In this document: positions 13,476-19,759 of the stretch, in pieces
Layout of the letters: every line of letters starts with the position of its first letter
How positions within the stretch are numbered: the first letter of the stretch is position 1
DNA from: a virus
IMG/VR virus record: IMGVR_UViG_3300008108_007799
Location: 1 to 21,886 of that record
Length of the DNA: 21,886 nucleotides
Strand: one strand, 5' to 3'
Made by a program: the position numbers and the translations under genes
The notes under the pieces: generated by a model
Databases searched by the model: none
What the model was told of the DNA's origin: nothing
The model's input: the letters and a program-made list of their open reading frames with translations, nothing else

Positions 13476-13793
13476 TTATTTTTTAGTTAAAGTAAAAGTT
13501 TTTGCTTTTTGTAATTGTATATAGCTTTCTAAAAGTTCAAGTATTTTTTCTTTATTAACCTGATATATAAATACCATTTCTTTTTCTCTAGTTATAAATC
13601 CTCTGGCTAATAATTTTTTGACATTAAAATATAATGCTTGCTTAGATTGTCCCATTAACTCAATAAGAACTGAAATAGGCACACCTTTATCAAATTGCAA
13701 AAGGTTTATCATAATTTTTTTTTGTCCAGTAGACAAAACTTTAGAATTATTGATTGCTTCGAGTAATAAGTTATGGGTTTCTAACAGAGTCAT
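13476..13793 (-). CDS. Winged-helix (MarR-like) DNA-binding regulator
   Basis: This 105-residue protein looks like a single MarR-type winged helix. STGQKKIMINLLQF (21-34) is a first helix, VPISVLIELMGQSKQALYFN (38-57) a helix-turn-helix, and VKKLLARGFITREKEMVFIY (58-77) a recognition/wing segment. A C-terminal helix (KEKILELLESYIQLQKA) may be a dimerisation arm. It is encoded divergently from the initiator-like gene at 14117 across a 323-base gap, a classic position for a regulator of itself and of its divergent neighbour. No ligand-binding part is present. The start is the first ATG of the frame. Target unknown; direct copies of TGTAAGTAAAAA at 13853 and 13908 in the gap are possible sites. 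Confidence 0.7.
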   Translation of the reverse strand: MTLLETHNLLLEAINNSKVLSTGQKKIMINLLQFDKGVPISVLIELMGQSKQALYFNVKKLLARGFITREKEMVFIYQVNKEKILELLESYIQLQKAKTFTLTKK

Positions 13794-13929
13794 AAGCGAA
13801 TGGTGTTATAAAATTTACATAATAATATATGTTAATCAACTTTATATTCAAGTGTAAGTAAAAAATTTTATTGATTTGTAAAATTAACTCATTATTGTTA
13901 ATGGCTATGTAAGTAAAAATTAGGAGGTT

Positions 13930-13953
13930 ATGGAAAGAATTTATAGGAAATAA
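13930..13953 (+). promoter_or_regulatory. Leader mini-ORF (MERIYRK) with strong ribosome-binding site
   Basis: A near-perfect AGGAGG (13922-13927) stands 2 bases before an ATG that opens only seven codons and a TAA. It is the strongest ribosome-binding site of the gap and lies 164 bases before the initiator-like gene, whose own start has no clear Shine-Dalgarno sequence. A short translated leader ahead of a poorly translated initiator resembles leader-peptide control in plasmids such as R1. Inference; it may also be a remnant of a lost gene. Confidence 0.4.
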
Positions 13954-13980
13954 GAATTAAACATCAGAAACACAATAACG

Positions 13981-14035
13981 AAAAAAGAAAGAGTGCCAAC
14001 CCGCAAGAGAAAGCACCCAAACTCCCTTATATAAC
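13981..14035 (-). ncRNA. Candidate antisense RNA to the initiator leader
   Basis: The promoter at 14070-14042 would start a minus-strand RNA near 14035. After about 20 bases it forms a hairpin: GGGTGC (14018-14013) pairs with GCACTC (13996-13991), with a 16-base loop containing CTTG (a YUNR-type motif). It then ends in TTTCTTTTTT (13990-13981), a normal rho-independent terminator. The product would be about 50-55 bases with no coding potential, fully complementary to the leader between the mini-ORF and the initiator gene. The layout matches antisense copy-control RNAs of plasmids. Existence rests on promoter and terminator only, and the stem is short (6-7 bp). Confidence 0.45.
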
Positions 14036-14082
14036 AATTGGAGTATAGAGGTATATTGTCTCTTAGTCAAGGCACTTTTTCT
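13986..14082 (+). promoter_or_regulatory. Nested hairpin in the initiator leader (possible attenuator)
   Basis: Three nested pairings exist on the plus strand: AGAAAGAGTGCC (13986-13997) with GGCACTTTTTCT (14071-14082), 12 bp with one G-U; AAGAGA (14005-14010) with TCTCTT (14059-14064); and ACTCC (14021-14025) with GGAGT (14040-14044). The 5' arm can also pair imperfectly with GCACCC at 14013-14018. So two alternative folds exist, one of them ending in T5. This is the logic of transcriptional attenuators in rep leaders. Inference. Confidence 0.4.
14042..14070 (-). promoter_or_regulatory. Near-consensus sigma-70 promoter reading left
   Basis: On the minus strand TTGACT (14070-14065) and TATACT (14047-14042) are separated by exactly 17 bases, each box one base off consensus. 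It points away from the initiator gene, into its leader. It is one of the best promoters visible in the window and drives the candidate antisense RNA. Confidence 0.6.
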
Positions 14083-14116
14083 AAAATTTAAAACAATTTT
14101 AAATATTAGAAAAGTA

Positions 14117-15193
14117 ATGGCATTATTACAATATTCCGAAGAACACACAATTCAAACACAGCTAGGCAAACTCTACTCTTTCAAGGAAGAAAAAGCCCGT
14201 TATCGTAAACATTACTTACCTTGGGATAAGATAAAAAGAGCCAATAAAAAAGTTAAGCCTGTTCGTCAAAAGTCCTTTTTTCTTAGTAGCCCCGCCAATA
14301 AATTACTTAGTGCCGTTATGAGTAAACTAATTAAAGGGGAAAGAGTATTCCTAAATCACAAATATATTTCTACTTTTACCTTTGTTGAAAGAAGACAGAA
14401 TGTAAGAATTATTGAGGAATTAGAGGATATATTAAATATTACCTATCATAATTCTATTACTATTGATGGTAAAAAATATCGTTATAGTTATGAGTTCGCT
14501 CATAAGGAACAAAACCTTGGAAATACTGCTTCTGTAGAAAATTTTGTCGGGACATTTATGTCCCAACAAAACGACTCTCTCTATATATATAAAGAAAATA
14601 ACAATATTGAAGATATAGATTTAGAATCTAATTTTTTACAAAATTCTGAAAGTGTTAAGCTTAAGGAAAATGCAGAACATAAAATTAGAGAATTTTCACC
14701 TATTCCCCCCTCTAAACTCAAAAAAAGACCCTCTAATAAGCGGAAAAAGCCTACTATGGCACAGGCAAAGGCAAGAATTTATCGTTTTAACCAGTACAAA
14801 GAGCCGCAAGACCTAAAGCACCATTACCCATTAAACAAGGAGGATGGAAGCAAATTACAAAGCCTGTCAGGGCGGGATTTTACCTTAAATGCCATGAATG
14901 AAATACTCTTTTCAATGTCAAAAAGACGAGATAACAGGTTTTGCTCGAAAGCCCAGTTTATGGCATATTTCGGTAAATGTCTGCGGTTTGAGATGCGGGA
15001 CGCTGTCAAAACTAGCAATGATAACTTCCGTATAAAAGCTAATATTTCCAAGGAAAAAATAGCAGAACCCAAGATAATCAGCGGAATTGAGGAAGTAGCA
15101 TATGATTTAAAAAACAGAACCACTGACGGTTTTCAGCTATTATCAATTACTGTTGAGAATTTGCTAGTAAAAAGTAAGGCAATCATGGAATAA
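14117..15193 (+). CDS. Replication-initiator-like protein (first copy)
   Basis: This 358-residue protein shares its architecture with the initiator-like protein at 18488. An N-terminal DNA-binding-type region (about 50-140) includes VFLNHKYISTF, RIIEELEDILNITYHNS and IDGKKYRYSYEFAHKEQN, which lines up by eye with the second copy's IIFNKELLT, LAQLADIYKITPHTS and YKGKKYHFIYSAKRTEN. A variable polar linker (about 145-210) follows, then a strongly basic segment (SKLKKRPSNKRKKP) and a C-terminal helical domain with SKAQFMAYFGKCLRFEMRDA, similar in style to Rep proteins of rickettsial plasmids. A replication-initiation role is inferred from this paralogy, from the dyad inside the linker and from the controlled leader. 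The start ATG has only a weak purine run (AGAAAAG), suggesting regulated translation. Could instead be a DNA-binding regulator. Confidence 0.55.
   Translation: MALLQYSEEHTIQTQLGKLYSFKEEKARYRKHYLPWDKIKRANKKVKPVRQKSFFLSSPANKLLSAVMSKLIKGERVFLNHKYISTFTFVERRQNVRIIEELEDILNITYHNSITIDGKKYRYSYEFAHKEQNLGNTASVENFVGTFMSQQNDSLYIYKENNNIEDIDLESNFLQNSESVKLKENAEHKIREFSPIPPSKLKKRPSNKRKKPTMAQAKARIYRFNQYKEPQDLKHHYPLNKEDGSKLQSLSGRDFTLNAMNEILFSMSKRRDNRFCSKAQFMAYFGKCLRFEMRDAVKTSNDNFRIKANISKEKIAEPKIISGIEEVAYDLKNRTTDGFQLLSITVENLLVKSKAIME
14542..14571 (+). other. Long dyad inside the first initiator gene, possible origin site
   Basis: TTTTGTCGGGACAT (14542-14555) and ATGTCCCAACAAAA (14558-14571) are inverted with one mismatch and a 2-base centre. 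The dyad is in the linker-coding part of the gene, at about codon 143-151. A very AT-rich run (TATATATATAAAGAAAATAA) starts about 12 bases later. The place corresponds to that of the iterons in the second initiator gene. An initiator-binding site is the preferred reading; an mRNA hairpin is an alternative. Confidence 0.45.
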
Positions 15194-18342: not shown

Positions 18343-18495
18343 ATGAACGAGTTGAAAGAAGAATCGATAAAAACGATAGCCAAAAGGTTAAAAAGAATGA
18401 CTAAGGTTGGAGATCAGACACTACTTCACGGAATTTTCTGGGATGATCTAGATACATTATTAAGCTTAATTTTAGAAGAGGAAGAAAGTGAGTAA
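18343..18495 (+). CDS. 50-residue protein coupled to the second initiator gene
   Basis: ATG at 18343 opens a short acidic helical protein (MNELKEESIKTIAKRLKRMT, then HGIFWDDLDTLLSLILEEEE). Its last codons overlap the GTG start of the initiator gene by 8 bases (GTGAGTAA). Its own coding sequence (AGAGGAAGAA) supplies the ribosome-binding site of that gene, a strong sign that it is translated and that the two are coupled. Possibly an initiator partner or regulator; no family recognised. Confidence 0.6.
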   Translation: MNELKEESIKTIAKRLKRMTKVGDQTLLHGIFWDDLDTLLSLILEEEESE

Positions 18496-19759
18496 AGCAG
18501 CTAACGTATCCTATGTAGATTTTCAAAAGAAGAAAAATGTTACAGAGCAGGATATATACAACAGTTGGTACGACAAATGGCTTGATATAAAAAGAGCATG
18601 TGATCCCTCTAAAACAATAGCGCATGAAGCTATTACGTTTATAGCGACTTTAGAATTTCTTTTTACTAAAAATCCTGATGAAATTATTTTTAATAAAGAA
18701 TTACTAACAAAGAAATGTAAGCAGGGTCCAAGACAGCGTAGCAGGTTTTTAGCACAATTAGCCGATATATACAAAATTACCCCTCATACATCATATAACT
18801 ATAAGGGAAAAAAATATCATTTTATATATTCTGCAAAGCGCACAGAAAATTCATTGGCAATTTTAAAAAATCCACAAGAATTTTATAAAAACCGGCAGTC
18901 AAAAATGACTTGCATAGAAGCCAAAAGTGACTTGTATACAAGTCAGAAATGTCTGGTATCCAAGTCAAATTTGACTACCACCTATACTGCCAACCCTAGT
19001 TCTATTCAAGGGATGCAGGAACATAGAAACATAATAGAAACAAATATAGAAACAGATCTTTTAGATCTTTGTTCCAGTAAAGATAGTAGTTTGTGTATAG
19101 AGGGGGAAAATCTAAAAAATCAGGATACTAATTTTATTTTTTCTAATCAGACCGAGCTAGAGGCTAATACGGAGTTCCATAACATGACCCGTGTAGACGG
19201 AATGATAGCAAAGGAGCAGGCTAGAAGGGAACGGGAGGAATTAGCAGGAGACTCATTCGAAGAACGGCTTGCAAGAGCTAAAGCTGATCGGGATAAGGAG
19301 CGATTAGCCTTAGCAAAACAGCAAAAGCCAACGGAAATAAAACAAATTGAACCTGACCCTAATTGCGAATTGTTAGAGTTTGCAAAGCAAGAAATACTGC
19401 ATGCTAAGGAACAACAAAACGATATTCATACCAAGAACGGCAATGTCTACCATGGCAACAGATTGCTTAACGAGTTTGATTTTACGGACGAGTTAATTGA
19501 TGCCGTACGAGAGAGGAGTAATAAACCGCATTTTTCCAATAACCGAATAATTGCGATTATGAGGAACATTGTCGCTAGCAACCCTAAGGTCAGAATTTGG
19601 GGAGGACGACAGGCTTTTATTAACTACATGGTCAAAGCGGTAAATAACGAGAAGGAATTCACTAAGGAGGAGAAAGCGCAATCACTTGCCGAAATAAAGA
19701 AAAAAGAAGCAGAACAGCTACTCTATGACTTTCAACACCGAGTAATCAGATATTTTTAA
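18488..19759 (+). CDS. Phage replication-initiator-like protein with internal origin
   Basis: This 423-residue protein is encoded immediately before a DnaB-type helicase, the place of lambda O or similar initiators. The N-terminal region (about 35-135) appears to be a winged-helix-type DNA-binding part: FNKELLTKKCKQGPRQRSRF, LAQLADIYKITPHTSYNY and KGKKYHFIYSAKRTEN. The linker (about 135-230) is polar and poorly conserved, and its DNA holds the iteron array. A charged helical stretch follows (REREELAGDSFEERLARAKA). The C-terminal domain (DFTDELIDAVRERSNKP, IRIIAIMRN-like helix, GGRQAFINYMVKAV) probably contacts the helicase. It aligns by eye with the 358-residue protein at 14117. GTG start, coupled to the 50-residue gene. 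The role is inferred from position, paralogy and iterons; a name is not assigned. Confidence 0.65.
   Translation: MSKAANVSYVDFQKKKNVTEQDIYNSWYDKWLDIKRACDPSKTIAHEAITFIATLEFLFTKNPDEIIFNKELLTKKCKQGPRQRSRFLAQLADIYKITPHTSYNYKGKKYHFIYSAKRTENSLAILKNPQEFYKNRQSKMTCIEAKSDLYTSQKCLVSKSNLTTTYTANPSSIQGMQEHRNIIETNIETDLLDLCSSKDSSLCIEGENLKNQDTNFIFSNQTELEANTEFHNMTRVDGMIAKEQARREREELAGDSFEERLARAKADRDKERLALAKQQKPTEIKQIEPDPNCELLEFAKQEILHAKEQQNDIHTKNGNVYHGNRLLNEFDFTDELIDAVRERSNKPHFSNNRIIAIMRNIVASNPKVRIWGGRQAFINYMVKAVNNEKEFTKEEKAQSLAEIKKKEAEQLLYDFQHRVIRYF
18884..18989 (+). other. Iteron array: probable lambda-type replication origin inside the initiator gene
   Basis: Three 18-bp units, TGACTTGCATAGAAGCCA (18906), TGACTTGTATACAAGTCA (18928, a perfect palindrome) and TGTCTGGTATCCAAGTCA (18950), are separated by exactly 4 bases, giving a 22-bp period. 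Outer units match the centre one at 15 of 18 positions. Half-sites continue the period on both sides (AGTCA ending at 18901, TGACT starting at 18972). A 22-bp period is not a codon multiple, so the repeat is a DNA feature, not a protein repeat. Lambda ori has the same plan: 18-bp dyad iterons within gene O. Confidence 0.75.
19023..19054 (+). repeat. Three ATAGAAACA direct repeats, possible unwinding element
   Basis: ATAGAAACA occurs at 19023-19031, 19034-19042 and 19046-19054, at 11- and 12-base steps (about one helical turn), with all purine/A-rich bases on one strand. It begins about 35 bases after the last iteron half-site. Lambda-type origins have an AT-rich, strand-asymmetric unwinding region on this side of the iterons. 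Confidence 0.55.

Follow-up and report, generated by a model that had tools for sequence, protein, structure and literature searches.

How might the gap at 13794-14116 govern the probable replication initiator gene that begins at 14117? In the window analysed here (an IMG/VR virus record, all 21,886 bases of it), a first-pass annotation had read this gap as antisense control of the initiator, with parallels in R1-type and pIP501-type copy control. The parts it had listed were recovered: the AGGAGG, the seven-codon ORF and the nested hairpin lie where it had placed them, the plus strand over 13981-14116 folding far better than its shuffles (z -4.7, none of 200 as good). Antisense control as such proved well supported by comparison with related leaders, through the promoter, the terminator of the window's own group and two exclusive folds, but the parallels chosen for it were not supported. 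We consider it likely, judging from sequence comparison, that the gap is a copy-control leader of a plasmid or phage-plasmid in which an antisense RNA lowers translation of the initiator.

The element and its presumed initiator

Several phage-type genes are present in the window (virion structural protein, RuvC-like resolvase, RecT, YqaJ exonuclease and DnaB helicase); an MFS transporter and a SpoT-like gene with an HD domain are encoded as well. Two neighbouring ORFs, at 200-1273 and 1390-2061, match overlapping parts of the same virion structural family (phrog_3287), which suggests a partial duplication. The protein encoded at 14117-15193 has matches of up to 74% identity on Candidatus Megaera polyxenophila plasmids, and no phage record was found among its matches. 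One of the matching plasmids, the 64-kb circular CP113869.1, has the gene order of the window around the initiator locus and carries tail-fibre and terminase-like genes in addition; consequently, the window element is likely to be a phage-plasmid. Since the matching plasmids belong to Megaera, the host lineage is probably Rickettsiaceae.

With the 14117-15193 protein, no Pfam or NCBIfam family reached its cut-off, and Pfam showed neither a DnaA_N domain nor a RepC match. A relative on pPCS148 (L047), 62% identical over residues 13-311, has a C-terminal DnaA_N domain, and L157, about 31% identical to the window protein and preceded by a leader of group C (see below), carries DnaA_N as well, as do L158, L161 and L162. 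The AlphaFold model was of low confidence (pLDDT 60), but its residues 58-129 show elements in a winged-helix-like order; a fold search of the PDB with this model gave non-significant matches, several of which are Rep proteins. Taken by homology, the product is a probable replication initiator. A distant paralogue of it (18488-19759, 25% identity) adjoins the DnaB helicase gene; the paralogue's leader was searched for the antisense arrangement described below, and no matching minus-strand promoter was found there.

Antisense promoter, terminator and leader pairings among 49 relatives

Viral contigs, plasmids of Megaera and MAGs of Rickettsiales served as sources of leaders, of which 49 were kept; L033 and L047 were excluded on account of the different kind of coding sequence that lies upstream of them, and L099 was not used. 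They were sorted by eye, according to leader sequence, into seven groups: A, to which the window belongs (15 leaders), B (15), C (7), D (3), E (3), F (2) and G (4). Leaders of the same group are related, so that the counts and the p-value given below do not come from independent cases. The features of the window are collected in the table.

Table. Features of the leader region and its flanking genes (window coordinates).
Feature	Position	Strand	Basis
Divergent small winged-helix gene	13476..13793	-	Pfam MarR_2, E=0.001, below cut-off
Probable sense promoter (TTGATT-16-TATTGT; transcript predicted to start near 13905)	13871..13898	+	scored 9.5 in a consensus scan (ad hoc scale)
AGGAGG and seven-codon ORF MERIYRK	13922..13953	+	read in the sequence
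Predicted antisense RNA of some 55 nt, starting at 14035 and ending at about 13981	13981..14035	-	promoter and terminator
seg1, AGAAAGAGUGCC, pairs with seg3; inside the predicted antisense target	13986..13997	+	duplex energy, group permutation
Antisense terminator hairpin (hairpin T), U-tract at 13990-13981	13991..14018	-	in 15/15 group-A leaders
Hairpin P, ACUCC-loop-GGAGU, over the antisense -10	14021..14044	+	predicted antisense start inside the loop
Antisense promoter TTGACT-17-TATACT, predicted start 14035	14042..14070	-	consensus match 10/12
seg3, GGCACUUUUUCU, partner of seg1 or, extended to 14093, of seg4	14071..14082	+	pairing comparisons
seg3:seg4 hairpin, arms 14075-14093 and 14097-14114, directly 5' of the start codon	14075..14114	+	inverted repeat
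Probable replication initiator gene, 358 aa; presumed controlled gene	14117..15193	+	relatives on Candidatus Megaera plasmids

The minus-strand promoter claimed by the first-pass annotation is indeed present. A promoter of the form TTGACN-17-TATNNT lies 70-89 nt ahead of the start codon in all seven groups, and the strict pattern with its exact 17-base spacer was found in 48 of the 49 leaders, against 0.02 expected from dinucleotide shuffles, which argues that it is not there by chance; in L022, the -10 departs from the pattern. Likewise, the claimed rho-independent terminator on that strand was recovered: in the window its best fold has -13.8 kcal/mol, with none of 15 shuffles as good, and it is followed by the tract UUUCUUUUUU. 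Our strict terminator scan of the window omitted this hairpin, probably on account of its loop limit of 8 nt. In group A, standard pairs are formed in 94% of cells when hairpin T is read as antisense RNA and in 62.7% when it is read as sense RNA; wobble pairs favour the minus strand by 52 to 0, the G.U pairs giving stability as antisense only, and the mean MFE is -13.1 kcal/mol as antisense versus -4.0 as sense. The plus-strand reading of the hairpin, which leaves 37% of cells unpaired, was rejected. Since no pair of hairpin T is altered on both sides in group A (no classic covariation), the case for it is made by strand preference together with conservation. The strand test in group B gave 23 versus 23, and most leaders of groups B-G are without a recognisable antisense terminator. 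A discrete, terminated antisense RNA is predicted in 15/15 group-A leaders, the window included.

On the sense strand, hairpin P occupies a fixed position relative to the antisense -10; in nearly all leaders, its loop contains the point at which the antisense RNA is predicted to start. When the 31 distinct stems are compared, pairs 3 to 8 show several standard types that differ on both sides, that is, compensatory changes; these were counted by a script anchored on the -10, the MAFFT columns for P being out of register. The segment just downstream (in the sense direction) of the antisense -35, seg3, has two possible partners; the first-pass annotation had likewise named two alternative folds. 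With seg1 it forms 12 pairs in the window and 17 in group B, where 98.8% of cells are paired, and the native duplex has -19.4 kcal/mol, whereas exchanging one side for those of other groups gives means of -10.3 and -7.0. With seg4, whose end lies at the start codon or close to it, seg3 forms an inverted repeat that is 94% complementary (-11.3 kcal/mol), and the region 14070-14116 folds with a z of -4.75. For each of the two pairings, the native assignment was the best of the 5040 permutations of the seven groups. In group D, seg3 pairs upstream with the loop of hairpin P and so creates a pseudoknot; most of the other groups use, as the activating partner, a linear segment that flanks hairpin P instead of its loop. 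The seg1:seg3 pairing is weak in L145 and L151 and nearly missing from the predicted ensemble in L150, L028, L034, L045, L046 and L154, and simple strand counts over the two long-range helices favour neither strand. On this comparison, the two sense pairings of seg3 are mutually exclusive and specific across seven divergent groups.

When the antisense target was masked in silico, the mean accessibility of the start region, as predicted by the energy model, fell from 0.53 to 0.33 and was lower in 47 of the 49 leaders; in chimeras, masking changed it by a mean of 0.000 as compared with -0.196 in native leaders (p=3e-24). As to preservation in relatives, which the first-pass annotation had named as a check, comparison at the level of sequence establishes the promoter and the two exclusive pairings, as well as the antisense terminator and its strand preference in group A; in most of the remaining leaders, no recognisable terminator was found.

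A proposed translational switch and its alternatives

From these features we infer transcription of both RNAs, antisense binding, an effect on translation, a role in copy number and an initiator function of the gene, and we propose the following sequence of events. The sense RNA would begin at the probable sense promoter; TTGA-type promoters similar to it stand upstream of the switch in many relatives and are not strictly conserved. In the absence of antisense RNA, seg1 would pair with seg3 once the latter has been made, so that the start region stays open and the initiator is translated. The antisense RNA would cover seg1 and the 5' half of hairpin P, making its first contact probably at the loop of P, which lies opposite the antisense RNA's own 5' end. 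With seg1 occupied, seg3 would be freed to fold onto seg4, the start site would be closed and initiator synthesis would drop. The dose of antisense RNA would track copy number and provide negative feedback, and the target sequence would set incompatibility. The claim of a poor ribosome-binding site at the initiator start is borne out, only AGAAAAGTA preceding the start codon.

The leader could also be read as an attenuator of the pIP501 or pT181 type, one of the two parallels drawn in the first-pass annotation, in which seg1:seg3 followed by a U-run is a rho-independent sense terminator under antisense control. Groups A, B and D do have a U-run after or within seg3 (GGCACUUUUUCU in the window), but there is none after seg3 in groups C, E and F and in the DnaA_N-type leaders. 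Moreover, the antisense RNA covers seg1 and would break this stem, blocking the terminator and giving positive feedback, the wrong sign for copy control, and the conserved seg3:seg4 pairing would be left unexplained. pIP501 and pT181 share with the window an antisense RNA that decides between leader folds; the effect is of opposite sign, and the terminator is missing in several window-type groups. Because of the sign of the feedback and the missing U-runs, translational control is preferred and attenuation appears unlikely. The other parallel, R1, would have the antisense RNA block translation of the seven-codon leader peptide, to which the initiator would be coupled. This we hold to be highly improbable, despite the strong AGGAGG and short ORF in the window and the enrichment of very short ORFs in the leaders of other groups. 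The AGGAGG (13922-13927) is kept in most group-A leaders, but the ORF (ATG GAA AGA ATT TAT AGG AAA TAA, 13930-13953) follows it at a spacing of 2 nt only, and of the 14 leaders of group A in which the AGGAGG region is retained, six have its ATG, the others having ACG, AGG, ACA, CAA and the like. Between its stop codon and the antisense target there is a gap of about 30 nt, and 14117 is a long way off; by all these signs, the leader peptide is neither conserved nor coupled to the initiator.

Two further readings do without an antisense RNA as the regulator. The minus-strand promoter might mainly drive the winged-helix gene that runs leftward from 13793, its antisense effects being incidental, and it is consistent with this that a small divergent ORF is found in nearly all relatives and that groups B-G are without a clear antisense terminator. 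Group A, however, has a strong terminator between the promoter and the divergent gene, and both promoter and pairings are retained in L031 and L036, which have no adjacent divergent ORF of such size, and in L018, where the nearest homologue is 878 nt off; we find this reading very unlikely. Next to no weight is given to the view that an autoregulatory protein binds the inverted repeats in the DNA, with the RNA folds as by-products. The repeat 5' of the start codon is a near-perfect palindrome in DNA, but the use of G.U pairs in hairpin T is strand-specific, both partners of seg3 keep pace with it, and the position of the antisense promoter is fixed within the structure.

The winged-helix gene may encode a second, transcriptional repressor. 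A divergent ORF of about 90-125 aa occupies its position in nearly all of the 49 loci, and recognisable homologues of the window's winged-helix protein were found in only 18; this ORF may be a fast-changing partner repressor across the loci. The direct repeat TGTAAGTAAAAA stands at 13853-13864 and 13908-13919 of the window, flanking the sense promoter, and is a possible operator. A second minus-strand TTGACT-17-TATACT, with the same hexamers and spacing, is located at 13473-13445, just past the winged-helix gene.

Known systems and wider reach

By their logic, the nearest systems are those of IncB/IncI-alpha/IncL-M and the ctRNA of repABC, and by the tests applied the window leader is a member of neither. 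In the first, an antisense RNA (RNAI or Inc RNA) competes with an activating long-range pairing, the repA/repZ pseudoknot (PMC10724649, PMC12365149 and works cited there). The window-type leaders resemble it in that antisense RNA is predicted to oppose an activating long-range pairing, failing which a hairpin closes the initiator start, in that antisense and target are structurally asymmetric, and in the pseudoknot topology of group D, with a hairpin loop as partner. They differ in having no conserved, initiator-coupled leader peptide, in the linear segment that serves most groups where only group D has a pseudoknot, and in an unrelated initiator; against Rfam, the leader gave no match at the gathering score and nothing credible below it. 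In repABC of Alphaproteobacteria, where the ctRNA (RepE) lies between repB and repC, a large stem-loop keeps the initiator start open without ctRNA, and the downstream sequence refolds into a rho-independent terminator with it (model in PMC6090056). The likeness lies in a short antisense RNA (about 50-60 nt) ended by its own terminator, as predicted here for group A, and in a refolding that would decide the fate of the initiator start, but the refolded hairpin of repABC is a terminator whereas seg3:seg4 in the window lies directly against the start codon and is not followed by a U-run. In addition, a divergent winged-helix gene and phage-type genes stand in place of an upstream repA/repB operon, and the window initiator is not RepC-like by Pfam. 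R1/IncFII (CopA, CopT, Tap) is similar in directing antisense RNA against the initiator mRNA leader, with a possible second repressor gene nearby, but the window-type antisense target is without a conserved leader peptide.

The Rickettsia plasmids pRAM18 and pRAM32 have a DnaA-like initiator and a low copy number (PMC3244465). Such an initiator is a point of likeness (DnaA_N is found in relatives of the window protein, not in the protein itself); leader control is not described in PMC3244465, from which the word "antisense" is absent, and neither plasmid was among the homologue matches. In agreement with the first-pass annotation, which knew of no antisense-controlled initiator in Rickettsiales, our search of open-licence papers turned up none that deals with antisense control of a plasmid initiator in Rickettsiales, nor did it yield a study of plasmid copy control at such a level in this order. 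Rickettsiales are hard to grow and manipulate; a leader whose logic is legible in its sequence and open to testing in an E. coli reporter offers a direct handle on copy control.

A similar arrangement was observed before DnaA_N-type initiators on other Megaera plasmids. L158, L160 and L161 have a minus-strand promoter some 57 nt ahead of the start and a hairpin with the Shine-Dalgarno GGAG inside it, and the corresponding arm of that hairpin also pairs with a segment further upstream; for DnaA_N-type initiators, the layout of the window thus places the GGAG within the seg3:seg4 hairpin. L162 has the pairings and a minus-strand terminator, but its best -10 is 15 nt from the -35. DnaA_N-type leaders are few, and between the close relatives L158 and L161 the seg1:seg3 pairing is not specific. 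Strains NDG2, PCS and SAG 25.80 each have several such plasmids with a different leader on each, and the leaders of co-resident plasmids show weak cross-complementarity, which fits a role in compatibility. The divergent leader set presents an antisense switch that alters its specificity while the layout stays the same, and this bears on the coexistence of several plasmids in one symbiont. We tentatively suggest, as a possibility that falls somewhat short of an even chance, a previously undescribed class: an antisense-controlled translational switch spanning two initiator subfamilies of Rickettsiaceae plasmids and phage-plasmids, in which the target segment (linear or loop) is the activator, an AUG-stop mini-ORF replaces the leader peptide, and fast diversification lets several plasmids share one endosymbiont cell.

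The leaders contain a number of further elements. In groups B-G, a Shine-Dalgarno sequence followed by an AUG-stop or AUG-one codon-stop mini-ORF was found in 14 of 34 leaders against 0.7 expected (among them L005, L006, L018, L019, L028, L040, L142, L145 and L147); it sits 5' of seg1 and stops short of the switch. In groups C, D, E and F (for example L142, L034, L006 and L155), an extra sense hairpin upstream of hairpin P has the form GAUGUAUC-loop-GAUACGUC or GGCGUUUUGC-loop-GCAAGGCGUC, with AACC and a T-run after it. Many leaders of these groups have, still further upstream, a hairpin with a motif like TTCTTGGCGGT. Finally, L014, L016, L022, L024, L026 and L045 carry a small GAAT-loop-ATTC hairpin upstream of the switch, which repeats the loop of hairpin P (CTGAACA, CCGAACA or CCCAACA); the two change together, and the small hairpin may be a second antisense contact.
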